Shown: positions 1 to 14,236 of the stretch, in pieces | Layout of the letters: each line of letters begins with the position of its first letter | Position numbering within the stretch: position 1 is the stretch's first letter | Origin: Terrimicrobiaceae bacterium | Lineage (GTDB): Bacteria > Verrucomicrobiota > Verrucomicrobiia > Chthoniobacterales > Terrimicrobiaceae | Assembly (NCBI GenBank): GCA_018402345.1 | Contig: JAGYIV010000011.1 | Coordinates: forward strand, 1-64,000 | DNA length: 64,000 nucleotides | Direction of reading: 5' to 3' | Notes under the pieces: generated by a model | What the model was told of the DNA's origin: nothing | The model's input: the letters and a program-made list of their open reading frames with translations, nothing else | Database searches by the model: none | Program-made: the position numbers and the translations under genes

Positions 1-10
1 GGGGTCCCGC

Positions 11-187
11 TCATTTTTCTTTCCTCGGGCGTGGGGCTCGGGCGGACTCGGGCAGGAACTCAACGACTTTGCCGTCTTTCCAGACAACCATCGGAACGCC
101 CATGAGCCGGTGTTTCTCGGCGGCTTTCTCCACCGCCCTCTTCATGACTTTGGAGATTTCCTGAATGCGTTGATGGGCGGTTTTCAT
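11..187 (-). CDS. Small 58-aa protein coupled to the Abi gene
   Basis: The start ATG (185-187) overlaps the TGA of the Abi-family gene upstream as ATGA, which implies translational coupling and decides the start. The protein has an N-terminal basic, helix-prone stretch (MKTAHQRIQEISKVMKRA) and a short C-terminal half (GVPMVVWKDGKVVEF) ending in a Pro/Arg/Lys tail. I do not recognise the family. The 'VVWKDGKV' turn resembles the C-terminus of short antitoxin-like proteins found next to toxins, but that is only a resemblance. Its position directly behind a HEPN-type toxin candidate makes a partner or antitoxin role plausible. Length and coupling support a real gene. Confidence 0.6.
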   Translation of the reverse strand: MKTAHQRIQEISKVMKRAVEKAAEKHRLMGVPMVVWKDGKVVEFLPESARAPRPRKEK

Positions 188-1071
188 GGCAGGTGTTTTC
201 TCCAAAGGTCGCGTTCCCGCCAATCCTCCGGAAAACCCATGTGCGGTGTGATGTCCCATGAATGGGCGCCCAGGAGCTTGATCAGGCGATTTGTCCAATG
301 CTGGCCGGGCTCAATGATATCGAGGAGGTAGGTGAGGACCACGAGTGTGTTGTAGATCGCACGGGACTCGGAATGGAATTGTGCGAGCAGCGTGGCGGGC
401 TTTTTGCGGGGCAGGGTGAAGGTCACGGCGAAGCGGCGGTTCCAGAGCCGGGCGTGGTGGGCGCAGGAGTTGCGAACAACGGTCAGGTGGTGCAAAAAGG
501 AGCGGAGGACTTTTTCGTCGAACCCGTAGGCATCCGCGATGGCTTGCCTGTCCGCTGGCGCGGCCAGGTTGTCATAGAAGGCCGAGAGTTGGCCAAGGCT
601 CATCACTTCGCAAACCATCCAAACGGGTGGGCGCGCGGTGCCGGTGCCGCGGTGCGACCTCAAAAAATCCTCGGTGCTGCGGCGAATCTCTGTGTCGATG
701 TTGGAAAGCGTCTTTTGATGTGTGGCAGCCTCACGGTGGATGGCGGGATTTTCGTAGGATTGTGGTCCATGCGCGTGGGCGAGAACATAGGCCCATCGTG
801 TCCGGAACGAGATTTCACAGCGCTCGATGGCGTCGAGCATGAGAATCCGGAAGAGGTGGTCGAATCGGTAGATTTCCCAGAGGCTATCGAAGTGGCTGCC
901 GGGGGAGAAAGTATCTGTGCCGGGGATTTGGAAGGGGTGGCGGTAGCAGTTCAAGCGAAAGTAATTCGCGTGGGCAAGCCGATGAAGGGCGAGTGCGCGG
1001 TTGCTGACAACAAGGCCTCTGGATTCCAGGAGAACAAGCTGCTGCTCGAAAGTGGCAGGCTGCTTCGACAT
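184..1071 (-). CDS. Abi family (Abi_2/AbiD-AbiF) HEPN-type abortive infection protein
   Basis: This 295-aa protein matches the Abi_2 pattern: an N-terminal 'FEQQLVLLESRGLVVSN' with a following 'LHRLAHANYFRL', a central 'FDHLFRILMLDAIERCEISFRT' helix, and a C-terminal 'VVRNSCAHHARLWNR'. The last segment contains R200-x4-H205, the R-x4-6-H signature of HEPN ribonucleases. Proteins of this family abort phage infection, probably by cleaving RNA. The stop overlaps the ATG of a 58-aa gene, so the two form a two-gene unit. It lies at the edge of an island of phage-type domain proteins. The family call is firm; its target and activity here are inferred. Confidence 0.88.
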   Translation of the reverse strand: MSKQPATFEQQLVLLESRGLVVSNRALALHRLAHANYFRLNCYRHPFQIPGTDTFSPGSHFDSLWEIYRFDHLFRILMLDAIERCEISFRTRWAYVLAHAHGPQSYENPAIHREAATHQKTLSNIDTEIRRSTEDFLRSHRGTGTARPPVWMVCEVMSLGQLSAFYDNLAAPADRQAIADAYGFDEKVLRSFLHHLTVVRNSCAHHARLWNRRFAVTFTLPRKKPATLLAQFHSESRAIYNTLVVLTYLLDIIEPGQHWTNRLIKLLGAHSWDITPHMGFPEDWRERDLWRKHLP

Positions 1072-1260
1072 TTAGTGGACCGCCGGCGGGCAAAAAAAGT
1101 AACCCGCCTGGTGCGCATCGTGGAGAGGCGTGGCGGGTGTTGTTAAGTAGAAAGTGACCAGGCGTGTTTGCGGTGTCAAATGGAAAGTCTTGGATGCAGC
1201 GGCGAAAGTGGCTGCCGAGGCATGACCAATACAATGCCCAGCGGGGCGCTCAGATGAAGC

Positions 1261-1331
1261 CGTGCGGAGTGTGCGTTTCCAAGAAAGGTTCATGGTTTGG
1301 GTTAATTCGAAATGCGAAATGGGGAATGCGG
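1261..1331. repeat. Dispersed repeat A, copy 1
   Basis: About 71 bp that recurs at 5046-5115 with a few substitutions and a 1-2 base indel. The shared core includes 'gaaaggttcatggt' followed by 'ttaattcgaaatgcgaaatg'. A fragment of the same text ('caggaaaggttcatggttt') is at about 3708-3724. All copies sit between accessory genes. Confidence 0.85.
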
Positions 1332-1353
1332 CGAGGCCGCTGTGGCGGAGGAA

Positions 1354-1425
1354 TGATAGCGGAGGACGGAGGTGGTTGCGCCGCCGTGGCGCGTGGCTTG
1401 TAACGAGTGGCGGGTGAAGAAAAGG
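1354..1425. repeat. Dispersed repeat B, copy 1
   Basis: Starts 'tgatagcggagga', contains the GC-rich palindromic core 'gcgccgccgtggcgc' and ends 'gtaacgagtggcgggtgaag'. The second copy is 3821-3931, which carries about 35 extra bases in its middle. It lies just behind the ORF6N gene. Confidence 0.85.
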
Positions 1426-1456
1426 AGGAAAAAGGCATGGGTGGAAGTTTTAAGAA

Positions 1457-2377
1457 TTAAGTTTTAAGGAGTGGTGTTGCAGGGAGGCGAGAGAGGATTT
1501 CCGGTGCCAGGGAGTCGAGTTTGGAGAATGCGAAGCATTGTTTTCCGAGGTCTTTCATGGAGGCTCCGAGGTGGTAGAGGTCCTGCTTGTCTGTGATGAG
1601 GAACCGGTCGTGGAAGCCCTCGAGGGTATGGATCGCGATGGGTGGGTATTTGGCGTTGTGTGCTTTTCGAGATCCAAGGCGAGTTGGCGGCTGATTTTGC
1701 GTGTGAAAATGGTGGCGCTGGTGGAAGCGTGGCGTTTGGCGAGCAGCAGCAGGACGGACTCGTTCACATAGTTGTCCACAAGGAGGATCGAGCTTTTCGC
1801 CTTGCGGATGAGGGAGGCGACGAAGGCGTAGGCGTCGAATATCTGGCCGTTGAAAAAGATGCCTTGCGCGGGGGGTATGGTTGCCATGGTTTTCGAGCAA
1901 CGAGAAAATTTTCTCGATTTTTTGATCGGAGAAGACTTGGCGGCGTTCGACTTGGTCGAGACGCTCGAAAATCTTGGCATGGTGGAGGATGAATTTGCGC
2001 ATGGCCACGAAGGCCCTCATGATTTGGATGCCCACATCGACGGCGCGTTCGCTGCGCAACACGGCGGTGAGCGCGGCCACGCCCTCCTCGGTGAAGGCAT
2101 ATGGCAGATAGCCTCCCAAGTGGCGGGAGGAAGGTATCGCATTTTGCGATACCAACTCGTCGACCTCGCTTCGGGTGAGCTGAAACATGAAGTCCGGAGG
2201 AAAGCGATTGGCGTTCCTTTTTACCTGCTCGCGCAGGCGGATGGGTTTGACTTCAAAAAACACAGCCAAATCGCGATCAAGCAGGACTTGCGCCCCACGG
2301 AGAGTGAGAATCCGCTCCGCAACTTGATGGGGAGTCGGTGCTTCGATGAGAGTCACAGACTGGCTTTCAGCCGGCAT
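1457..2377 (-). CDS. ORF6N domain protein with PLD-like C-terminus, internally out of frame
   Basis: The N-terminal domain ('ILTLRGAQVLLDRDLA', then 'NANRFPPDFMFQLT' and 'YAFTEEGVAALTAVL') is the ORF6N DNA-binding-associated domain of phage regulators. The C-terminus 'FHDRFLITDKQDLYHLGAS' resembles the half-active-site segment of PLD-like proteins. Between them about 75 residues are low-complexity Arg/His/Pro, whereas another frame of the same strand reads a natural sequence there ('GIFFNGQIFDAYAFVASL'). One extra base in the C6 tract at 1870-1875 shifts the frame. An extra CA dinucleotide at 1656-1661 restores it. The start chosen is MPAESQ at 2377; a GTG at 2413 is possible but lies inside a palindrome. 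Confidence 0.8.
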   Translation of the reverse strand: MPAESQSVTLIEAPTPHQVAERILTLRGAQVLLDRDLAVFFEVKPIRLREQVKRNANRFPPDFMFQLTRSEVDELVSQNAIPSSRHLGGYLPYAFTEEGVAALTAVLRSERAVDVGIQIMRAFVAMRKFILHHAKIFERLDQVERRQVFSDQKIEKIFSLLENHGNHTPRARHLFQRPDIRRLRLRRLPHPQGEKLDPPCGQLCERVRPAAARQTPRFHQRHHFHTQNQPPTRLGSRKAHNAKYPPIAIHTLEGFHDRFLITDKQDLYHLGASMKDLGKQCFAFSKLDSLAPEILSRLPATPLLKT

Positions 2378-2408
2378 GGTGTTTTTAAAAATTGAGATTC
2401 GTAGGGTA

Positions 2409-2423
2409 GTCACAAATTGTGAC
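2409..2423. promoter_or_regulatory. 15-bp perfect palindrome upstream of ORF6N gene
   Basis: GTCACAA-A-TTGTGAC is a perfect inverted repeat centred about 40 bases before the chosen ORF6N start. Its position and symmetry fit an operator for a dimeric DNA-binding protein, possibly autoregulation. This is inferred from symmetry only. Confidence 0.4.
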
Positions 2424-2650
2424 CACCTGCTCTTTTTCGGTTAATTTTGGAAAAGTTTGAGCCCCAGAGGAAGAAAAGGATGAAGTATGGTGGCGGGTAA
2501 AGAGCGGAACTGATTTTGGATTGGAGCTAACGGCGCGTTGCGCCTGAATCTTGGGTCCGCTCGGCGATCCGCCCCTACCTTGTAAACGAATGCTCGACTC
2601 GGATGCCACGGCGCTGACGACGCATCGCCCTCCAGTTTTTGCGCTTGGGA

Positions 2651-3694
2651 TCACTTCTTTTTCCTCCGGGGTTTGGGAGCGGGAGATTGGGGGAGTTGCT
2701 GAATGGCTTGCTCAAAGTCGGCGTCCACGGGGCGGGGTTGCGAGTCGAGAAACAACCGATACCGCTGGAATTCCAGCTCCGCTTTTGCTTTTGCCTGCTC
2801 GGCGGAGATTTTTCCGGCGTGGTTCAGCAACTCATGCTCGGAGAGTTTCAGGAACTCGTCGAGCTTGGCAATCCAATCGCGCATCGTCATGACCTTGCGC
2901 TGCAAGGCGCGGAGTTCGGCAAATTCGATGTAGGCTGTGACGATCCGGTTGAGCGTTTCGAGTTCCGGTGCGTCGAGGTAGTTCTTGGCGATGGAGACAT
3001 CCTCCTTGCGGATGATGCCGCCGGGGCGCGTGGTTTGCAGGCCCATGAAGGGCTTCTCGGCATCCGCCCGCGCATGGATCACCTCGGCCGCCGTCCGCCC
3101 GTGGGCCGCCCAATGCATTTTGTTTTGCACCGTGGCGAAGAACTGCTGCGACATCTCGGCGTTTGGCGTGTAGTCGACACTCGTCGCGTAAATATCCAGA
3201 ACCTTCTGGTGGAAGAGCCGTTCTGAGGAGCGGATGTCGCGGATGCGCTCGAGTTGCTCGTCGAAGTAATCCTTCTGGCCCTCACCGGGGGGATTCTTGA
3301 GCCGCTCGTCGTCCATGGTGAAGCCTTTGACGAGGTATTCGTTCAATCGGCCGATGGCCCATTGGCGGAACTGCGTGCCCCGGTGGCTGCGCACGCGAAA
3401 GCCGACGGCGAGGATGGCGTCCAAGTTGTAATGCTCGATCTCTCGAGCAACCTCCCGGTTGCCCTCGGTTCGAACTATTCGGAATTTCCGAATAGTTGCC
3501 CCCGGCGCCAGCTCCCCCGCGGCGTAAATGCCTTTTAGGTGCTCGTTCACTGTCGGCACGGTGACTTGGAATAGCTCGGAAATGAGCGCCTGCGTCAGCC
3601 ACAAGGTCTCGTTCTCAAACCGGCATTGGATGCGGGTGCGGCCATCCTCAGTCTGGTAGAGGATGATTTCGGAATCCGGCAAGGGGTCGGACAT
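2651..3694 (-). CDS. RhuM family (virulence RhuM) protein
   Basis: 347 aa. The N-terminus 'EIILYQTEDGRTRIQCRFE' followed by 'ETLWLTQALISELFQV' and 'VNEHLKGIY' is the conserved opening of RhuM proteins. The middle holds 'REIEHYNLDAILAVGFRV' and 'GTQFRQWAIGRLNEYL', also diagnostic. The family is named after a Salmonella pathogenicity-island gene and is common in genomic islands. The biochemical role is unknown; a DNA-binding/regulatory activity linked to phage-type repressors is the usual inference. The C-terminus is a Lys/Arg tail (KPRRKKK). The gene is intact and alone between repeat-bearing spacers. Confidence 0.9.
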   Translation of the reverse strand: MSDPLPDSEIILYQTEDGRTRIQCRFENETLWLTQALISELFQVTVPTVNEHLKGIYAAGELAPGATIRKFRIVRTEGNREVAREIEHYNLDAILAVGFRVRSHRGTQFRQWAIGRLNEYLVKGFTMDDERLKNPPGEGQKDYFDEQLERIRDIRSSERLFHQKVLDIYATSVDYTPNAEMSQQFFATVQNKMHWAAHGRTAAEVIHARADAEKPFMGLQTTRPGGIIRKEDVSIAKNYLDAPELETLNRIVTAYIEFAELRALQRKVMTMRDWIAKLDEFLKLSEHELLNHAGKISAEQAKAKAELEFQRYRLFLDSQPRPVDADFEQAIQQLPQSPAPKPRRKKK

Positions 3695-4059
3695 CAGAGA
3701 GTTTTCAGGAAAGGTTCATGGTTTCAAAGCGGCCTCGTTTTGTCTGCGGTCATTTCCATGCAGCCTCGGTTGGGTGATGTCGCAAAAGCTGCAACAGGCC
3801 TTCGACCAATGGCGGAGGACTGATAGCGGAGGATGGAGGTGGTTGCGCCGCCGTGGCGCGCCCCAGTGGAATAAAAAAACAGGATTCCACGGGGCAAGGT
3901 GGCGTGTAACGAGTGGCGGGTGAAGAAAAGGGAGGCAGGGTGAATTTTGGATGTTGAATTCCGGCTCGACCCTCGACTGCTGGCTCTCTCGACGGCTGCT
4001 CGCCCTCGCCTCTCGACGATTGTGGATTTTGAGTGATGGATTTGAGATGGAGGGGGGCA
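3695..4059. other. Intergenic spacer with repeat B copy 2
   Basis: No gene seen. It contains a fragment of repeat A near 3708-3724, repeat B copy 2 (3821-3931), and AT-richer text with 'gatgttgaattc' and 'gatggatttgag' that echoes the spacer near 4975-5035. Confidence 0.6.
3821..3931. repeat. Dispersed repeat B, copy 2
   Basis: Matches 1354-1425 at both ends. Relative to that copy it has about 35 additional bases between the 'gccgccgtggcgcg' core and the 'gtaacgagtggcgggtgaag' end. Either copy 1 has lost the segment or copy 2 has gained it. Confidence 0.85.
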
Positions 4060-4877
4060 TTATTTCAGGCGTTTGGGATTGTTTGCTGCGAGCAGGGTGC
4101 GCATCTGGGTGATTGCGATCTCATTCAGCTCAAGGAGTCGCTCGGACTGGCCCAGACCTTGGCGGATGAGGACGGAATTGAGGCTCTCGAGATTTGTGAG
4201 GACGACAAGTTGCTCAAGCGGCGCATGGTCGCGGATGTTGCCTTCGGCATCGGGATGGGCATCGCGCCATTGCTTCGCGGTCTCGCCGAACAGAGCAACA
4301 TTGAGCAGGTCGGCTTCGTTGGCATAAACGAGCGATGCTTGGGCCTTGGTGAGTGTCGGCGGCAAGAGTGTTTCTTTGATGGCGTCGGTGTGGATGCGGT
4401 AGTTGATCTTAGCGAGGGTGCGTGGAGGCTCCAATCGAGCTTCAGACGGCTGTTTTCGTCCTCTTTAAGCCGCTGAAATTCGGTGATGAGTTTGAACTCG
4501 GGGCTGAGCCAAGATCCAAACTCGAACGCGATGTCTTTGTGGGCGTAAGTGCCGCCGTATCGGCCGGCACTGGCAATGAGCCCTTTGGCCCCTGTCAGGT
4601 GGATCCACTTTTTGGCCGAAAGGAAGAAGCTATTTCGACCGGCCTCATTTCCAATTCCCTCGAATTCGGGGGAATTAAAATGAGGGTTGTTGATGCGCTC
4701 CCAGACTCCAAGGAATAGAATGGTGTCTTTGTTTTTGAGCCACTGTTCGATGAGCGCGCCGGCACCGTCGAAATTGCGCACCATGTCAGTGAGGGAGATG
4801 TAGTCGCCCTCGGGCCGGGGCATTATGCCGATCGTTGTTCCCTGGACAGTGATGGTGATTTGTTTGGATTTACTCAT
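4060..4877 (-). pseudogene. KilA-N domain protein, frameshifted
   Basis: The first ~150 residues are a KilA-N domain: 'GDYISLTDMVRNFDG', 'GVWERINNPHFNSPEF', 'GLIASAGRYGGTYAHKDIA' and 'FGSWLSPEFKLITEFQRLK'. KilA-N domains bind DNA in phage and viral regulators. After 'RLKLDW' (about 4430) the frame runs into meaningless Ser/Thr/Pro text. The other frame continues the family sequence 'RTLAKINYRIHTDAIKETL' through to the stop at 4060. Adding one base at about 4422-4424 restores a ~272-aa product of the usual length. The start MSKSKQIT overlaps the stop of a short upstream frame as ATGA. It is either a recent pseudogene or a sequencing error. Confidence 0.85.
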
Positions 4878-4975
4878 TTTTTCTCTGCTTCGAAGTTTCC
4901 GAGGACTTCGCCGATTACCACGGTGTAGTTGAGATTTCCGTGGTCGAGGTCCACATCGGGCAGGAAGACGGTCAA
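4874..4975 (-). CDS. Possible 33-aa remnant overlapping the KilA-N start
   Basis: A frame starting at TTG (4973-4975) encodes a 33-aa peptide ('LTVFLPDVDLDHGNLNY' then 'VVIGEVLGNFEAEKK') that ends in a TGA overlapping the KilA-N ATG. The composition is protein-like, and the overlap matches the coupling seen elsewhere in the island. It could be the C-terminal stub of a gene whose 5' part was replaced by repeat text. Family not recognised. Confidence 0.35.
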   Translation of the reverse strand: MTVFLPDVDLDHGNLNYTVVIGEVLGNFEAEKK

Positions 4976-5045
4976 TGATGGATGTTGAATGTTGGATGGT
5001 GGATTCATTCAGAATTCAAAATTGCTCATTCAAAATTTCGCAGCC

Positions 5046-5115
5046 CGTGCGGAGGGTGCGTTTCCAGGAAAGGTTCATGGTCGGGTTAATTCGAAATGCG
5101 AAATGGGGAATGCGG
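5046..5115. repeat. Dispersed repeat A, copy 2
   Basis: Near-identical to 1261-1331, including the 'cgtgcggag', 'gaaaggttcatggt' and 'attcgaaatgcgaaatgggg' parts. It lies directly behind the NYN nuclease gene, preceded by AT-rich filler ('attcaaaattgctcattcaa'). Confidence 0.85.
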
Positions 5116-5139
5116 AATTTTTATGGAGCGTGAGAAAAG

Positions 5140-5760
5140 TCACCATGCCGGTGGTTTGTGGAACTGCCCCTGTGAACCGCTAAGCGGGTTCGAAAAAAGT
5201 GAGGCCTCAAGGACACCTCGGCGGATTTGCTTGTAGAAATCGACTTGCGGTTCGAGCGCGTAGCTGACGCGTTTTTGGGGGTTGATCAAGCCTACTATCT
5301 TTTGAAAGCGGCGGCGGACAATCTTGATCGACTCAAGCAGGTCGGAGTCATTCGAAACAACCACCGCGCAATCCATGGTATTCTCGAAAGCATCCATCAT
5401 CAAAGCAACGGCAAGGTTCACATCGGACCCCTTTTCCTCGGTCTTCAGCACATCAACCATCACCGGCGGTTGCTCCAACGGAAACAGGGGCATCTTTTTT
5501 ACGCTCTGCAAAAACACACCGAGGTGAATGTCGATCAGGGGCAATGTCCGTAATGCCCTCAAATAAGTGTGCTCACGCGTGGTTTTATCGGGATCAGCCG
5601 GGTCCGGCTTGATCAAGGCGGAAAAATATCGCACGCGGTGAATCTCATGCCCGGGCAGCAGCAAGTTGCACACCGCATATGGATTGACCCAGCGAATGCC
5701 AAACTTCCGGCAAGCACCGTAGTAAAAGTTGAAGCCATCGATGTAGACAATGGTCTTCAT
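5140..5760 (-). CDS. NYN/PIN-like ribonuclease domain protein (LabA/DUF88 type)
   Basis: 206 aa, starting at MKTIVYIDGFNFYYG. D8 in 'YIDGFNFYYGA' and the later 'KGSDVNLAVALMMDAF' and 'VVVSNDSDLLESI' supply the conserved acidic residues of the NYN (PIN-like) metal-dependent RNase fold. The start is fixed by an ATGA overlap with the upstream DUF1016-like gene, although the frame stays open to 5925. Standalone NYN proteins act on RNA, and some belong to defence or toxin-antitoxin loci. Here it is the last gene of a three-gene overlapping cluster. The fold call is strong; the target is unknown. Confidence 0.85.
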   Translation of the reverse strand: MKTIVYIDGFNFYYGACRKFGIRWVNPYAVCNLLLPGHEIHRVRYFSALIKPDPADPDKTTREHTYLRALRTLPLIDIHLGVFLQSVKKMPLFPLEQPPVMVDVLKTEEKGSDVNLAVALMMDAFENTMDCAVVVSNDSDLLESIKIVRRRFQKIVGLINPQKRVSYALEPQVDFYKQIRRGVLEASLFSNPLSGSQGQFHKPPAW

Positions 5761-6359
5761 GGAAAAAAGCAGGGGCCGCGCCTTTCGGAAACGGCCCCGC
5801 GTCCTTTCGCCGAAGCTACTCGGAGGGATGAATGGGATAAGTTGGCTTGGAGAGTTGCGCTCGTCAAGGGATGAAAACTTTTTGCAAAACTCCGATTTGG
5901 CAATTGGGGCACGGATCGTGACCAAATTGAAAAGGGGTGGTGAGACGGCGCCTGCGTCGATGCGGTGGTGGGGGCCTGAATCAATTGTGCCGCAGGCTGC
6001 GGCACAATTCCATCCGACTGGTTTTGATCGCCCTGCAAAAGTGACGCAGGTTGCGGCACTTTCTCGGCCATGGCGGGATACTCCCGGAAAAATCGTAACA
6101 TCCGCTTGAGATTCCGCTCGGAGAATCCCTTTTCCTCGGGGAGTTCGTTTTTCAAATCTACGGCGAGCTTTGGAATGACTCCAGCGCCCCAGCCCTCGCG
6201 TTCCTGTCTCGCAGCGATCATGCGGCCGATATCCCAGTAAAGGAGAATCATCTCGGCATTGGCAGAGAGTGCCGCACGCTTCTGGGCGGCCCGAATGCGG
6301 CTTTTGATCTCAGCAAGAAGATCGCGATAGATCGCGAGTTGTGGGGTGATTTCCGACAT
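5757..6359 (-). CDS. DUF1016 (YhcG-type) N-terminal domain protein, truncated
   Basis: Residues 1-105 match the N-terminal domain of YhcG/DUF1016 proteins: 'IYRDLLAEIKSRIRAAQ', 'LYWDIGRMIAARQEREGWG' and 'FSERNLKRMLRFFREYP'. In full-length members a PDDEXK nuclease domain follows. Here the family sequence fades after about residue 110 and the last ~90 residues are Ser/Ala/Pro-rich without the nuclease motifs, so the catalytic half is missing. The start overlaps the stop of the DUF4236 gene (TGATG) and the stop overlaps the NYN start (ATGA). Either a broken gene or an adaptor retaining only the N-terminal domain. Confidence 0.8.
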   Translation of the reverse strand: MSEITPQLAIYRDLLAEIKSRIRAAQKRAALSANAEMILLYWDIGRMIAARQEREGWGAGVIPKLAVDLKNELPEEKGFSERNLKRMLRFFREYPAMAEKVPQPASLLQGDQNQSDGIVPQPAAQLIQAPTTASTQAPSHHPFSIWSRSVPQLPNRSFAKSFHPLTSATLQANLSHSSLRVASAKGRGAVSERRGPCFFP

Positions 6360-6502
6360 CAGTTCTTGGCTTTGTTTTTGCGGCCTCGGGAGGTGGTGCC
6401 AACACGGAAGCCACGGCCACCCCCGGAATAGCCAACGCCAGACTTACTCAGATTCACTCGGAACGGGCCGAGGTTCACAGATTTTCGGTAGTAGAAGCCC
6501 AT
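6359..6502 (-). CDS. DUF4236 domain small protein
   Basis: 47 aa. The sequence opens MGFYYRKSVNLGPFRVNLSK and continues SGVGYSGGGRGFRVGTTSRG, the DUF4236 signature, then ends in a basic tail (RKNKAKN). It is at the short end for the family, whose members often carry extra domains after this motif. The TGA shares one base with the ATG of the DUF1016-like gene (TGATG), so it is the first gene of an overlapping trio. Function unknown. Confidence 0.8.
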   Translation of the reverse strand: MGFYYRKSVNLGPFRVNLSKSGVGYSGGGRGFRVGTTSRGRKNKAKN

Positions 6503-6621
6503 CAGATCCGAGGAACAGTGGCTTGGAAGGAAGCAGCGGGCATGAGGGTTAGTTCAGCTTTTTCGATGGCTACGGGCAATTGGAAACCTGAAGAATTTCA
6601 CTCGTCATCTGCGCACAAAAT

Positions 6622-6871
6622 CGGAGAGCCGCTCCCCCATCCGAACCGTGCGTGCGGATTTCCCGCACACGGCTCTCCAGTTGTGAGTTTGCCGGCTCCT
6701 CTGTTGCCAGAATTTCGTCGGACGCCAGACCAGAGGCTCCGAGGACTTGCAGGATTTCCCTCCCCGGCTCTGGCTTCTTCGACGCACCACAATAATGCTT
6801 TGGCTTCCCCAAGGCTCGTCTCGGAAGGACTCAGACTTTCACTGGTTGTTTTCATCTATGTGCGTTCGCAC
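6622..6871 (-). ncRNA. Group II intron remnant (domain V intact, no ORF)
   Basis: Read on the minus strand, 6675-6643 form a textbook domain V: GAGCCGTGTGCGG, GAAA tetraloop, TCCGCACGCACGGTTC. It carries the AGC triad and the two-base bulge. Upstream on the same strand a GTGCG 5'-end motif lies at 6871-6867, followed by 'CCAGTGAAAGTCTG' and 'CGAGCCTTGGGGAAGCC', which resemble domain I text of bacterial introns. Only ~190 bases separate the two ends, far too few for domains I-IV or a reverse transcriptase, so most of the intron is gone. GGAGAGCC before and GGCTCTCC after domain V can pair. The 3' end is not resolved. Confidence 0.72.
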
Positions 6872-7096
6872 TGGCGCGGGCCTCTCGCCTGCGGATGGAA
6901 TCCGTTCGATGCCAGGCGGGACGCAATGACCTACGCTTCGACGCCGCCACGCTACAAATAGGGGGGCATGGCCGTCTCGGCCGTCTCGGCCGTGTTGACA
7001 CCGACCCACGCTGACACCTCAGCACTCGCACAACAAAACCACCCCGTCCCGCATAAGGTGTGACCTCCGACAGCGAACCCCCCGACACTACACCCG
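6872..7096. other. Spacer at the island/core boundary
   Basis: No gene seen. It contains a short tandem repeat of GCCGTCTCG (about 2.5 units, near 6970-6994) and GC-rich filler. It marks the switch from accessory genes to the coaB-purH unit. Confidence 0.5.
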
Positions 7097-7741
7097 CTAT
7101 TGCAAAAACATCCCGACAAGCGCCGCAGCCAACTGCTCTTTGTCGGCACACTCCACCAGTGGCGCATCAGAGCGCACCATGCCGAAACCTTGTCCGTAAG
7201 CGGCTCCATTGACCACACACGCATCGCTGCGTGCCTCGACGAGTTGGGATGAGGCTTTCTGCAGCGCGTCGTCGCGTGTGCCGTCGAGTTCATATTTCCA
7301 GCCGATGATCGCAGCGGCTGGAAACCAATCGCGCAAGCACGGCAGCAGTTTTGCCGCAGGGCGCAGCCTGACAACCAACTCGCCGTTTCTGCTGGAGAGC
7401 TTCTGATCGCCTGACGCCCCATCGATTCCCACCACCTCGAAATCGCACAGGGCCGCAGCGTGGAAAATCAATGAGGGTTCCTTCGGCAGTGATTGCAACC
7501 CCTCCGCCAGAGAGGTGTTCGTGGAGAACGAGCGCACAACCACACCCGACGGAGGCTCAGCCGTAGCCCCCTCGCCTCGAAAGCAAACCACCTCGCATCC
7601 GGCCTCAAGCAACGCCTTGGAGAGAATGGCTCCAATCTCCCCAGTTGCGAAATTTGTGATCCGCCGCACACCGTCCAGCGGTTCATACGCCGGACCGCAG
7701 GTGACCACAGCAAGCGGGCGATCTGTGGCGGCGGTGGCCAC
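7097..7741 (-). CDS. coaB: Phosphopantothenate-cysteine ligase (CoaB), standalone
   Basis: 214 aa with a GTG start. '[19 protein letters not shown]' is the CoaB nucleotide/phosphopantothenate loop, '[11 protein letters not shown]' the conserved Ala-Ala-Asp segment, and '[13 protein letters not shown]' the late strand motif. The enzyme joins cysteine to 4'-phosphopantothenate in coenzyme A synthesis. Bacteria usually fuse it behind the CoaC flavoprotein as a ~400-aa CoaBC. Here there is only the ligase half, so CoaC must be elsewhere or supplied by a different enzyme. The start lies 3 bases after the purH stop, so the two are co-transcribed. Confidence 0.85.
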
Positions 7742-7744
7742 GTC

Positions 7745-9268
7745 TCAGTGGCGGAAATGCCGGGTGCCGGTGAAGACCATCGCCACACCTTTCGCGTCGG
7801 CTGCCTGGATGACCTCGTTGTCCCGCACCGAGCCGCCGGGTTGGATGGCTGCCGTGGCTCCAGCCTCGGCGGCGGCGATGAGGCCGTCGGGAAAAGGGAA
7901 AAATGCATCACTGCAAACCACGCTGCCCTTGAGCGAGAGACCCGCCTCCTGGGCTTTCCACACGGCGATGCGCGAGGCATCGACGCGGGACATCTGCCCG
8001 GCGCCGATTCCCAGTGTGCGGTCTGCGCCAGCGTAAACAATGGCGTTTGACTTCACGTGCTTCACGACTTTCCAGCCGAATTCCATGGCTTCGATCTCTG
8101 CCTTTGTGGGCGGGCGGGCCGTGACGACCTTGTGCTCGAGTTCCGGGATGTCGGCGGAGTCGGAATCCTGCACGAGCAACCCGCCGAGCACGCCGCGCAT
8201 GTCGCGTCCACTTTGAGTCAGCGGCTTGAGAATGCGCATGAGGCGGAGGTTTTTCTTCTTCGCCAGCAACGACCGGGCCTCGGTCTCGAATTCGGGAGCG
8301 ATAATCACCTCACTGAAAATCTCGGAGATCGCCTTGGCGAGGGCCACGGTGACCGGTTGATTGCAGATGATGATGCCGCCGAACGGTGCCTGCTTGTCGG
8401 TGGCGAAGGCTTTTTCCCATGCCTCGCGCAGGTCGGGATCGGTGCCAACGCCGCAGGGGTTGGTGTGCTTGAGGATCGCGACGGTGGGCTTGGTAAACTC
8501 GGAGATGAGATTTGCGGCTGCACTGATATCCAGTATGTTATTGTAAGAAAGCTCTTTGCCTTGGAGCTTGTCGAAATAAGACCCGAAATCTCCGTAGAGT
8601 TCCGCCTGCTGGTGCGGGTTCTCGCCGTAGCGCAATCGCATCTCGAGGGGCAATTCCAACCGGAAGCGGCTGCAGGTCTGCTGCTCGCGGTTCAAGTAGC
8701 CGAAAATCGCCGAGTCGTAGCTTGATGTCGTGGCAAACGCCTTGATCGCCAATCGCTCACGGAGGACGAGTGTCGTGCCGCCGGATTCCTCACGCATGTC
8801 CTCAAGGACCGCAGAGTAATCGGCGTGATCGGTGACCACGCAGACGGATTGGTAGTTTTTCGCCGCGCTGCGGATCATCGAAGGCCCGCCGATGTCGATT
8901 TGCTCGATCGCCTCGGCAAGCGTCACGTCCTCACGGGCGATCGTGGCTTCGAAGGGATAGAGATTCACCACCACAAGGTCGATCGGGCGGATGCCATTGG
9001 CTTTGGCTTGGTCCTCGTGCGTGGCGTTTCCACGGACATAAAGCAGGCCGCCATGGATCTTCGGGTGCAGGGTTTTGACCCGACCTTCGAGAATTTCCGG
9101 AGACCCGGTGAAATTCGAAACCTCGACGGTGTTGATGCCTGCGTCGTGCAGGGCCTTGGCGGTGCCTCCTGTCGAAAGGATTTCGACGCCGTGCTCGGCG
9201 AGGCCACGGGCGAAATCAACAATTCCGGTCTTGTCGGAGACGGAAATCAAAGCGCGTTGTATTTTCAT
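7745..9268 (-). CDS. purH: Bifunctional AICAR transformylase / IMP cyclohydrolase
   Basis: 507 aa, usual PurH length. The N-terminal cyclohydrolase half shows '[19 protein letters not shown]', 'STGGTAKAL' and '[13 protein letters not shown]'. The transformylase half shows '[15 protein letters not shown]', '[11 protein letters not shown]' and the end '[14 protein letters not shown]'. It catalyses the last two steps of purine synthesis to IMP. It is followed by coaB after 3 bases. A GC hairpin sits in its upstream region at 9301-9321. Confidence 0.97.
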
Positions 9269-9300
9269 GAATTGAGAAGCGTGGAAGGCTATGCACCACC

Positions 9301-9321
9301 TTGGGGGACTTCAACCCCCAA
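9301..9321. promoter_or_regulatory. GC-rich hairpin between fabV and purH
   Basis: TTGGGGG-ACTTCAA-CCCCCAA is a perfect 7-bp stem with a 7-base loop, in the 97-base gap after fabV and before purH (both minus strand). There is no T tract, so it is more likely a processing/attenuation hairpin or a REP-like element than a simple terminator. Confidence 0.4.
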
Positions 9322-9365
9322 TCGGCGCGGCAAAAATGCTGGATCGAACCAATCTCGACGAACGG

Positions 9366-10556
9366 TCAAGCGATGGATGGAATCGGCACCGCTGGATCCA
9401 CATCCGCCCCGTAATCGACCCCATCGAGGCCGAAGCCGAACAAGCGCTGAAACGAGGCCTGGTAGCCCGCAAAATCGGCGAGTTCATTGAGGTTGTCGGT
9501 GGTCACCGCCTCCCAGCGCTCACTGATCAACGCTTGGACATCGTCGGCCATCTCCCAGTCGTCCACACGAATGCGCCCCGCGTCATCCACAGGCGGCGCG
9601 GTCTGGGTCAACCGGTCGCGGAACAGGCGATCCATCTGCTCGATGCACTCCTCATGCGTGCCGCCGGCCTTCATGATTTTGTAGAGAAGCGAAATATAGA
9701 GCGGCACGACGGGGATCGCCGAACTCGCCTGCGTGACAAGCGCCTTATTCACCGACACCCATGCCTTCCCACCGAGCGGGGCGAGCTTGGCGTTGATCGC
9801 GGCGGCGGCCCGCTCGAGGTCTTCCTTGGCCTTGCCGATGGTGCCGTTTTTGTAGATCGGCCATGTGAGGACGGGGCCGATGTAGGAATACGCCAGCGTC
9901 TTCACGCCGGGCGCGAGCACTCCTGCTTCAGCGAGGGCATCCATCCACATCTCCCAATCCTCGCCGCCCATCACAGCGATTGTGTGAGCGATTTCCTCGT
10001 CGTTCGCAGGCTCGATTGTGACACTGTTCACTTCCCCCGTGCCGGTATTGAGGTTTTTATTAGTGTAGGTCTCGCCGATCGGCTTGAGGGTGGATTTGAA
10101 CACCTCGCCGGTTTTTGGATGCGTGCGGCGCGGGGACGCAAGGCTGTAAACCACACAATCGACCTGCCCAAGATCAGCCTTGATTGCCGCGACGACCTCC
10201 TGCTTCAGGGCATCGGAAAACGCGTCCCCGTTGAAGGATTTCGCATAGAGCCCGGCAGCTGCCGCCTCGCGCTCGAAGGCGGCGGAATTATACCATCCCG
10301 CCGTCGCCGTTTTCACCCCCTCGCTCCCGCGCTCGAAAAACACACCGATCGTCGCTGCTCCCGACCCGAATGCCGTGGCGATCCGCGAGGCCAGGCCGTA
10401 GCCGGTCGATGCCCCGATCACGAGAACCTTCTTCGGCCCGCCGGGAATCTCCCCCCGCCCCTTCACATGGGCGATCTGGTTGGCAACGTGTTTCGCGCAG
10501 CCTGCTGGATGCGCCGTGGTGCAAATGAATCCGCGGATTTTGGGAGTGACGATCAT
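9366..10556 (-). CDS. fabV: Enoyl-[acyl-carrier-protein] reductase, FabV type
   Basis: 396 aa from [17 protein letters not shown], the standard FabV/TER N-terminus and length. '[19 protein letters not shown]' binds NAD(P)H. '[13 protein letters not shown]' followed by 'KNGTIGKAK' gives the Y-x8-K catalytic pair. '[18 protein letters not shown]' and '[11 protein letters not shown]' are also family hallmarks. It reduces trans-2-enoyl-ACP (or -CoA) in fatty-acid synthesis and is typically triclosan-insensitive. The frame stays open upstream to 10706 but the family start is at 10556. Confidence 0.95.
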
Positions 10557-10678
10557 AGGAAAGGGGCGAACTCTGAAGGGATGCGGCGCGGGGCTCAACG
10601 TTTTTTCACGCCATCCATGGCAGTCCCCCCGGCACTCAAGCATCTCGCGGAAACAACAACCCCTGATAGACTGCCTGC

Positions 10679-11664
10679 ATGAACACGACCCCAACACGCC
10701 GCACAAACTGCCTTCTCGGAGCCTTCCTCGGTGATGCCCTCGCCATGCCGGTGCACTGGTATTACGACCGCGAGGCCATGGCGCGGGACTATGGCCATGT
10801 CACCGGATTGCTCGCCCCGAAGAATCCCCACTCCGACAGCATCCTCTGGCGCTCGAGCTATTCCCCCGCAAACGCCAAAGGCGACATTCTGCACGAGCAG
10901 GCACAATTCTGGGGGCGCCGAGGCGTGCACTACCACCAGTTTCTCGAGGCCGGCGGGAACACGCTGAACATGCAACTCGCGCTGGAGTTGATCGCCTCGC
11001 TCAGCGCCTGCGGGACCTACGACCAAGCGGACTACCTCGAGCGCTACGTGGCCTTCATGACCACCCCACACCGGCACCGCGATACCTACATCGAAGAGTG
11101 CCACAGGAATTTCTTCACCAATTTCGCCAAGGGCAAATCCCCGCGGGATTGCGGCACGGAGGACATCCATATCGGAGGCCTGGCCCATGTGCCTGTCCTC
11201 GCGGCATGGGCTGCGAATGACGAGGCCGCAGTGTTGAAGGCGGTCAAGGAGCATGTGCGAACAACCCACCGGGGACCACTTGTCGAGACCGCTGCCCGCG
11301 ATCTCACCAAAGTGCTCTTGGCAATTCTGCAAGGCACCGGAGTCCGCGAGGCCATCGAGCAACATTGCAACGGCTGGGTCGGGCGCAAAAACTCGAATCA
11401 TGGGCTGCACGCGCTGACGAGGACGTGATCGGGCGCACCCTCAGCCCGGCATGCTACCTCCAGGACGCCTTCCCCGCCGCCCTGTTCCTGGCTTGGAAAT
11501 ACGACACCGACTTGAAGACCGCCCTCATCGCAAACACCAATCTTGGCGGAGACAACTGCCACCGAGGCATCGTGGTCGGCGCCATTCTCGGAGCAGCAGG
11601 AAACAAAGTTCCCGGCGACTGGATCGATGGTCTCCGCTGCGCGCAGGAACTCAAAGTTCCCTGA
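10679..11664 (+). pseudogene. ADP-ribosylglycohydrolase family protein, frameshifted
   Basis: Begins '[20 protein letters not shown]', the family's first metal/substrate motif. It continues normally ('IHIGGLAHVPVLAAWAAND') to 'GWVGRK', then hits a stop at 11428. The next frame carries on with 'ESWAARADEDVIGRTLSPAC' and 'NLGGDNCHRGIVVGAILGAA', the C-terminal metal-binding motif, to 11664. The break is at the A5 run 11387-11391; a sixth A would restore a ~328-aa protein. Such enzymes remove ADP-ribose from proteins or small molecules. Divergent from fabV. Confidence 0.85.
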
Positions 11665-11962
11665 CCCGGTGAAATAACCCGCCTGACTGCAAGTCATTTC
11701 AGCAGGATTATGTCAGCGCATGAAAAAACCGCCACCCTTGCCATGACCGCCCTCGCCACGATCTCCACCAACCTCTCAGCCCGAACCATTACCAGCGTTG
11801 ACTTCCACCCCTGCGAACGCATCCCCTCGCCCTTCACTGCCGAGGGGCATTAGCAAGGCATTCATTGCGACCTTCCGACACGTTTCACGCCGCAAGTTTT
11901 TTGGCCGATCGGCCATTTTTTTGACGGCCCCGGTCACCACCGGGTTGTGGCATCGATTCGGA
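11665..11962. other. Intergenic region, no clear gene
   Basis: 298 bases between convergent genes. A 47-codon plus-strand frame (11710-11853) has no recognisable product. The right part holds the terminator-like hairpin described separately. Confidence 0.5.
11899..11922 (+). terminator. Putative intrinsic terminator
   Basis: TGGCC-GATC-GGCCA (11902-11915) is followed by a run of seven T on the plus strand. The stem is short (5 bp) but GC-rich. It would end plus-strand transcripts coming from the ADP-ribosylglycohydrolase gene. Confidence 0.5.
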
Positions 11963-13465
11963 TCAATGCCTTCGTGAAGGACGGCGTTGATTGACCGGAA
12001 GGAGGCGCTGCTCGGTGTAGCGCGCGAGGCGCACGAAGGGCAGTCCGATCAAAAGGTAAAACGTGGCGACAAGCAGGCCGGCGCCGAAGTAGTCGAAGGT
12101 TTGTGTCGCGATTTGTTTGTAGGCGCCCGTGAGGTCGATGAGCGTGACCATAGACACAAGCGAGGAGTCCTTCAGCAGGGAGATGAAGTCGTTTGTGACA
12201 GGCGGGAGCACGAGGCGGAAGGATTGGGGCATGACGACGTGGAGCAACCCCTGCCGCTGTGTCATGCCGAGAGCGCGGGCGGCCTCCATTTGGCCTTTCG
12301 GAATCGCCAGCAGGCCGGCGCGGTAGTTTTCCGCCTCGTAGGCCGCATAGTTCAGCGCGAGGCCGAGCACGCCGGCGACGAAGGGGTCGAGCTTGATACC
12401 GATATTCGGCAGACCGTAAAAAATGATGAGAAGCTGGATGAGCAAGGGCGTGCCACGGATGATTTCGATGTAGAGGGTCGCCAGCCAGCGGAGCGGAAAC
12501 GGGCCGTAGACGCGCATGAGCGCGAGCGTGAATCCCAAGGCCACGGCGAAGACCATGGCGAGGAGGCTGACCTCGATCGTGACCAGCGAGGCCTTGAGAA
12601 GAAGGGGCCAGAACCGTGTGTAGCCAAGGAGGCGGTTCCACAGCGTCGGTTGGTCGGTGGTCTCGGCAACGAAGGCGCGGTATTCCGTATCGGGCAGCGA
12701 GGGATCCTCGGGCTGGCCGAAGGTGTCGGCGACCATGGGAGTCCAGAGCCCCCACCGCGAAAGAATGTCCCGCATTTTGCCGGAGGCGATGACACGCCCC
12801 AGAGCGTCGTTCAACTCACCTGCGAGGGCGCTGTTCGATCGGGCGACAGCGATGCCATAGGAAATCTGCCCGAAGGGAGGGCCGGTGAAACGGAGGTTTG
12901 GATTTGCGAACGCGTAGTATTTGGCGATCGGGTAGTCGAGGAGAACACCAAAGACGCGGCCGTTCACGATGTCGGCGTAGGCATTGATCTCCTCGTCGTA
13001 GATTTTCACGGTGACTCCAGGTGTTTTGTGAAGCATGCCGACGGCGGCGGTCTGCCCGAGTGTGCCGATGGCTTTCCCGGCAAGTTGCTCGAGCGAGGTC
13101 ACCGGCGGCGCGGTTTTCGAGACCACCAACTGCTCGTAGGTGACGTAGTAGGGTCGAGTGAAGAGGACCTCGGCGGACTTTTCCACGGTGATCTCGATGC
13201 CGCAGATGACGCAGTCATATAGCCCGCGGGAGAGCCCAGGGATGAGACCGTCCCAGTCATTCGGCACGAAAACGGGCTCGCGGCCCATTTCCTCTGCGAC
13301 CGCCTGGATGATCTCGTATTCGAAGCCGGTCAGATTGATTTCCGGAGCCATAGAAAGCGTAGGGTGCGTTGCTGTCGGTGGCGGCGGCCCAGCGCAGCAC
13401 AGGATCGGCGGCGCGGAGCGGCGCGGCGGCGAGTAGCAAAAGAAAAATGCAGAAAACACGGAACA

Positions 13466-13466
<1 letters not shown>
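11963..13466 (-). pseudogene. Amino-acid ABC transporter, fused binding protein-permease, frameshifted
   Basis: A signal peptide (MFRVFCIFLLLLAAAPLRA) is followed by the mature start 'LRWAAATDSNAPYAFY'. The frame is then lost and resumes as 'PEINLTGFEYEIIQAVAEEM', a type 3 solute-binding domain. The fused C-terminal permease begins about 'FWPLLLKASLVTIEVSLLAM' and has the EAA loop 'GQMEAARALGMTQRQGL'. Removing one G at 13348-13349 gives an uninterrupted ~500-aa protein. Such fusions import polar amino acids together with a partner ATPase, which is the next gene upstream (overlap TGATG). Confidence 0.85.

Positions 13467-14236
<770 letters not shown>

Follow-up and report, generated by a model that had tools for sequence, protein, structure and literature searches.

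Overlapping frames and a rearranged gene

Three reading frames lie on the minus strand between positions 5140 and 6502 of the window, which here means the whole 64,000-nucleotide stretch that was analysed. The first (6502-6359, 47 aa) belongs to DUF4236 (Pfam PF14020, E 9e-14). It is followed by a frame of 200 aa (6359-5757) with a DUF1016_N match (Pfam PF17761, E 9e-25) and by a frame of 206 aa (5760-5140) with an RNase fold of the NYN family (Pfam NYN, E 1.6e-9). The original prediction described the frames as overlapping, and they do overlap, DUF4236 and DUF1016 by TGATG, DUF1016 and NYN by ATGA. It was also right about the missing nuclease half of the middle protein, as the Pfam match spans only the first 90 of 137 profile positions.

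On the evidence of DNA matches, the middle frame is a DUF1016 gene cut within its linker, with the nuclease half missing. A genome of the same genus (G008) carries a DUF1016 gene of 390 aa with 94% DNA identity to window positions 5957-6374, and the two proteins agree up to about residue 134. An end of the DUF1016 sequence at 5957 was considered and rejected, since 48 further bases (5946-5899, 83%, E 5e-7) match the DUF1016 linker of another genome (G002) in frame. The N-domain and part of the variable linker thus occupy 5899-6359 on the minus strand, as delimited by PF17761 and the DNA identity to G008 and G002, and within the middle frame, DUF1016 sequence extends to about residue 154. On the NYN side, window positions 5183-5877 are matched by G011 (74%) and 5140-5831 by G041 (76%), and in both genomes NYN sits behind genes other than DUF1016. 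Because the DUF1016 match reaches 5899 and the NYN match begins at 5877, the junction falls within 5878-5898 (minus strand), 21 bases which match neither side according to the ends of the DNA matches. The middle frame is the N-domain of the DUF1016 nuclease family (PADLOC PDC-S02), but the window copy is broken and lacks the nuclease half.

The Ser/Ala/Pro tail of the middle protein, whose conservation had been raised as a question, has a mixed origin. Part of it is DUF1016 linker, and its end (5757-5877, minus strand) is DNA from upstream of NYN, including an RNA element, that happens to be read in frame. A conserved protein domain was rejected for the tail: its likeness to G041 and G011 stems from the upstream DNA of NYN. 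Moreover, G011 has one base fewer between the T-run of the RNA and the ATG, which shifts the tail frame.

Judged from sequence comparison, the trio is a chance junction inside a decaying defence island. A DNA search with the trio found both sides of the junction together in none of 96 other genomes. Furthermore, a profile based on 22 DUF1016 relatives, applied to 131 NYN stretches with limited flank, detected a single DUF1016 gene (L098), and DUF4236 was present in none of the 131. NYN is therefore not a replacement nuclease, as had been proposed. Nor do the overlaps prove that the three proteins are made together, a claim left unsupported because NYN is preceded by an RNA of its own. The overlap of DUF1016 and NYN is that of a truncated frame which by chance ends where NYN begins. 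The pair of DUF4236 and DUF1016 with the identical TGATG overlap also occurs in G002, where the DUF1016 gene runs open to the contig end. A working three-gene operon, with DUF1016_N targeting an NYN nuclease that took over from the PDDEXK half, is very improbable. The overlap of the frames on one strand speaks for such an operon, but G008 has an intact DUF1016 homologue, and the absence of the junction from 96 genomes and the DUF1016 neighbourhood in 1 of 131 stretches rule out a conserved system. The overlapping frames are thus real and the conserved operon is not; the decayed locus, also offered in the original prediction, fits the middle gene, with decay by rearrangement and an intact homologue in G008.

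Other parts of the island were also inspected. The KilA-N (4060-4877) and ORF6N (1457-2413) genes, both on the minus strand, look frameshifted by eye, and the island seems to decay. A RhuM gene beside them (2651-3694, minus strand) has a full-length match. The stretches 4878-5079, before KilA-N, and 6373-6626, the DUF4236 piece, recur in several genomes of the genus, often close together, which suggests a dispersed cassette.

The NYN protein and the RNA preceding it

The NYN protein matches the PADLOC profile HEC-09 (PDLC04163, E 4e-36) over residues 2-206, i.e., its whole length, and it also matches phrog_7929. A search of NCBIfam with this protein gave no match. Its AlphaFold2 model has a pLDDT of 96.3, and the PDB folds closest to the predicted structure are 2qip and the NYN domains of MARF1. 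ToxN is absent among the 50 PDB structure matches listed for the model. The best hit of a sequence search of solved structures was 2qip at only E 0.1. An alignment of 60 NYN sequences shows no variation at D8, N11, D113, D138 and D140; from the NYN/PIN fold, we assume a catalytic role for invariant residues such as these.

The acronym HEC denotes an Hma-embedded candidate. Antiviral activity of several such candidates is described in the available part of one report (PMC12988326). In one Pseudomonas study, by contrast with what a defence role would predict, strains with HEC-09 tended to be susceptible to phages rather than resistant (PMC12447246, available part), which counts against the module proposed below. 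The likeness to HEC-09 extends over the full length of the protein, but the PADLOC model is a protein profile, and the window copy lies outside any Hma system. Indeed, window positions 1-14000 contain no open frame above 507 aa, and the HmaA-like and HmaB-like proteins found in this analysis exceed 1100 aa.

The source genome harbors a second NYN gene (G000:C3:38852-39601; L062, L225), which is 43% identical and has its own copy of the RNA. In G041, the RNA and NYN pair adjoins a methyltransferase gene of type III (PADLOC MTase_III). On the other side of NYN lies a long gene without a PADLOC match, presumably the res partner of the methyltransferase gene. The gene ahead of NYN in G011 is taken to be xseA. 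Some relative of NYN is contained in 441 plasmid records.

The RNA was overlooked in the original prediction. It is a structured element of about 65 nt at 5832-5763 on the minus strand, directly before NYN, and is delimited by covariation, a covariance model (R1) and the predicted fold. It consists of hairpin P1 (5826-5803), hairpin P2 (5800-5769) and, directly after P2, a T-run (5768-5763). The DNA just before NYN is 95-97% identical between the window and G041 and G011, whereas the longer matches across the NYN gene reach 74-76% only. Similar hairpins of different sequence are found in G118, in G076 and at the second NYN of the source genome.

The model R1 was obtained by aligning 31 leaders, from which a structure of 19 pairs was derived. 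Compensatory changes occur at 15 of the 19 pairs in this unfitted alignment. R1 matches the window once, at 5826-5763 (57.6 bits, E 1e-14). Among 103 distinct R1 matches, all 19 pairs changed on both sides and 94.8% of the cells are paired, values reached by none of 500 shuffles, in an alignment that is fitted to R1 and includes two doubtful rows (L146 and L147). Two differences between the window and G011 in P2 were considered as a compensatory pair and discarded, as the positions are unpaired in the predicted fold of the window. The two hairpins are conserved and covary, and the element adjoins NYN genes of several phyla. A scan of the window and 10 other loci with Rfam 15 gave no match to this RNA family. 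Within the open-licence literature, a scope outside which the preprint defining HEC-09 lies (bioRxiv 10.1101/2024.01.29.577857), a description of the pair was not found in the available parts of PMC10853773, PMC3710099, PMC7180214, PMC12804078, PMC12447246, PMC12988326, PMC12373285, PMC8860590 and PMC11346440.

Distribution and arrangement of the RNA

The association was assessed in 80 genome loci, which are the best 80 of at least 499 NYN relatives, and in 46 viral loci. In this best-80 genome set, R1 adjoins NYN in 78 loci: the RNA is upstream on the same strand in 64, at a median of 13 nt ahead of the NYN match, downstream and convergent in 13, and upstream and divergent in one. As these are the closest homologues and 29 of their leaders trained R1, the rate is valid for that set only. 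The two misses are L146 and L147, where a hairpin pair is seen by eye in the convergent place. In viruses, 25 of 46 loci have an adjoining R1 match (21 upstream on the same strand, three convergent, one divergent). Two of the 21 viral misses have no upstream sequence, and 15 of the other 19 fold two hairpins before a T-run, with z of -2.3 or lower. L204 folds weakly, L186 has one clear hairpin, and folding L194 and L206 gave no hairpin signal. A DNA-pattern scan of viruses yielded one locus that was already in the set, the pattern being too strict. A protein search of 240 Verrucomicrobiota genomes returned 12 NYN matches, nine of which have an R1 match (E <1) at the start side; three of these nine are weak (E 0.006 to 0.05).

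Promoter-like sites were counted in 79 of the 103 loci with adjacent R1, after excluding 24 that were mostly weak or near-duplicate. A site was counted if, no more than 60 nt ahead of the RNA, the sequence agreed with TTGACA/TATAAT at 9 or more of the 12 positions. Such a sigma-70-like site precedes 51 of the 79 RNAs. In 50 shuffles the number was 7.0 on average and 10 at most, and the stretch 300 nt further up had a site in 3 of 77 cases. Nearly all of them (48/51) end 8-16 nt ahead of the RNA, and half of the opposite-strand RNAs (7/14) have one. In the window, the presumed -35 box TTGACG (5862-5867, minus strand) is shared with G011 and G041. The -10 box of the window copy is weak, with a best promoter match of 7/12 in all, which counts against the module proposed below. 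A consensus scan of the window called neither a promoter nor a terminator at the RNA, P2 included, and in the plasmid L229, it did not call the stem before NYN as a terminator; this, too, counts against the module.

Sixteen loci have the RNA just past the NYN stop on the opposite strand, namely 13 genome loci, mostly actinobacterial, and three similar viral contigs. The same arrangement occurs in the mycobacterial prophage prophiGD43A-1 and in a Paenarthrobacter plasmid. The RNA is therefore not merely a leader of NYN, and its convergent downstream position argues for action in trans. Two adjacent copies precede NYN in L131 and L174, and L108 has a second copy about 680 nt further upstream.

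A tandem form is found in small plasmids of Klebsiella (L229, 4479 bases) and E. coli (L228, 4599 bases). Four copies of a P1-shaped hairpin, spaced by 33, 33 and 29 nt, are followed by a stem with a T-run and then by NYN. L229 has a promoter-like site ahead of the hairpins and is ColE1-like, given its Rfam RNAI match. The tandem stretch is present in 17 plasmid records, and the NYN gene of these plasmids in 10 of 5426 E. coli genomes. An R1 search did not match the tandem hairpins in L228 and L229, so that the tandem form is tied to the RNA by position and hairpin shape. This and the single copy in the window, without a tandem array, count against the module. Another E. coli plasmid of 3.5 kb (L227, NZ_CP091696.1) has an NYN gene with two hairpin pairs ahead of it by eye; it also carries an antitoxin gene of the VbhA family for which no toxin is annotated.

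The RNA also occurs apart from HEC-09-like NYN genes. Whole-genome R1 searches with strict filters in 147 relatives (E <1e-9) and 288 genomes of the phylum (E <1e-6) gave 19 distinct strong matches, including the two of the source genome and leaving out eight weaker ones from the 147 relatives. Nine adjoin a HEC-09-like NYN, one of them frameshifted (G076), and one adjoins an NYN remnant recognised by eye (G041:C93). Single matches precede another NYN type with ResIII-like and MTase_III genes alongside (G315), DUF3800 (G357) and an AAA ATPase (G287), and six have no recognised effector in the stretches examined. The gene after the RNA is HmaB-like in G367, and the gene before it is HmaA-like in G226, the two loci being alike by eye. 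In Verrucomicrobiota genomes, the RNA is thus not tied to NYN alone, which counts against the module. Copies without a HEC-09-like NYN fit either leftover antidotes or a shared element. L258, L259, L257, L260 and L261 are RNA loci with DUF3800, the other NYN type, AAA ATPase, HmaB-like and HmaA-like genes.

A candidate RNA-restrained ribonuclease and its alternatives

The layout resembles that of type III toxin-antitoxin systems and of AbiF with its abiF RNA, from which we infer an RNA-restrained NYN RNase. With somewhat better than even confidence, the NYN RNase and the RNA of about 65 nt, acting as its antidote, are proposed to form a type III-like toxin-antitoxin or abortive-infection module. 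The proposal builds on the RNA structure, its association with NYN and the promoter position in many copies, and on the predicted protein fold. The convergent RNAs, the tandem hairpins in plasmids, the invariant NYN residues, the HEC-09 match, the methyltransferase gene in G041 and the Abi_2 gene with abiF RNA in the same island also speak for it. Expression, toxicity, binding and trigger would be as follows. Most transcripts would stop at P2, so that the RNA is made in excess. It would bind the NYN protein and hold the RNase activity off, like in type III toxin-antitoxin and AbiF systems. Upon a transcription block or loss of the RNA, e.g., by phage infection, free NYN would cleave RNA and growth would stop. 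Such an RNase probably serves abortive infection or maintenance. DUF4236 and the broken DUF1016 gene ahead of NYN would be bystanders of the decaying island.

The known type III systems (ToxIN, CptIN, TenpIN) appear to share with this locus type the order of promoter, RNA gene, terminator-like hairpin and small RNase-type gene. Here, the RNA is adjacent, 51 of 79 copies have a promoter-like site, and a hairpin with a T-run is present, with a weak promoter in the window and terminators uncalled by the consensus scan. The plasmid forms carry tandem hairpin repeats. Available text on ToxIN loci in E. coli describes their recognition by a -10 box followed by repeats, by a short hairpin acting as terminator and by the toxin start, and L228 and L229 share features used there (PMC8860590). 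The differences are the NYN fold, another RNA, mostly in single copy, and an RNA that may sit on the other strand, past the gene. We do not assign the module to type III, since the toxin family differs and neutralisation is putative. AbiF and abiF RNA (RF03085) are similar in that a small structured RNA with a T-run lies directly ahead of a gene of an RNase-like family, but they comprise an Abi_2 protein and another RNA, and the NYN RNA has no Rfam match. Abi_2 proteins are of the HEPN type. According to the available part of PMC12373285, abiF RNA neutralises the toxic AbiF protein in cis and in trans. An NYN ribonuclease associated with CRISPR likewise ties this fold to defence (PMC11346440, available part); the NYN of the window differs from it by the dedicated small RNA alongside.

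Other functions of the RNA have to be weighed. It could be a cis-acting leader only, which would keep NYN expression low as an attenuator or a riboswitch-like terminator and is possibly cleaved by NYN for autoregulation. This would agree with the same-strand upstream position, at a median of 13 nt, in 64 of the best 80 of at least 499 genome loci and with the promoter-like sites ahead of 51 of 79 RNAs. It is nevertheless doubtful, considering the 16 downstream convergent loci, the tandem repeats in plasmids and the RNA copies that exist without NYN. That the RNA activates NYN upon infection, as its cofactor, guide or sensor, appears rather improbable. A variable guide segment is not apparent, the whole hairpin pair being conserved, and the layout resembles that of RNA antidote systems, although pairs of RNA and NYN adjoin restriction genes and occur in viral contigs, and a CRISPR-associated NYN is described as processing RNA (PMC11346440, available part).

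The RNA might also be a general promoter-terminator cassette of defence islands, with NYN as just one customer. Its presence before DUF3800, a second NYN type, an AAA ATPase and, in G367, an HmaB-like gene, as well as behind the HmaA-like gene of G226, speaks for such a cassette. Distant NYN relatives retain the two-hairpin architecture, however, and the convergent RNA points toward the end of the NYN gene. The cassette appears about as improbable as an activator. A broader version of the antidote proposal is speculative and, in our view, unlikely: one RNA family could act interchangeably, as antidote or governor, on several unrelated effectors of the RNase type (HEC-09 NYN, the second NYN type, DUF3800) embedded in larger defence operons (such as Hma and type III restriction). 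If so, the exchangeable RNA would be a modular, RNA-controlled suicide switch that guards other defences.

Toxins of known type III systems belong to the ToxN family, and AbiF is a recent, second RNA-neutralised kind (PMC12373285 and PMC8860590, available parts). Should the antidote proposal hold, the toxin folds would be extended by a widespread NYN RNase that comes with an RNA and is found even on small plasmids of E. coli. The candidate HEC-09 would gain an RNA partner, and the way in which RNases restrained by RNA defend bacteria could easily be tested in the laboratory with this pair.

The same island holds a second module of RNA and RNase, composed of an Abi_2/AbiD gene (184-1071, minus strand) and, directly upstream, an abiF RNA (Rfam RF03085, 1102-1137, 47.4 bits), together spanning 184-1137. 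At 6615-6677 on the minus strand, a match to group II intron domain V (RF00029, 47.9 bits) is perhaps a remnant, no reverse transcriptase being apparent among the listed frames, and similar pieces recur in relatives.
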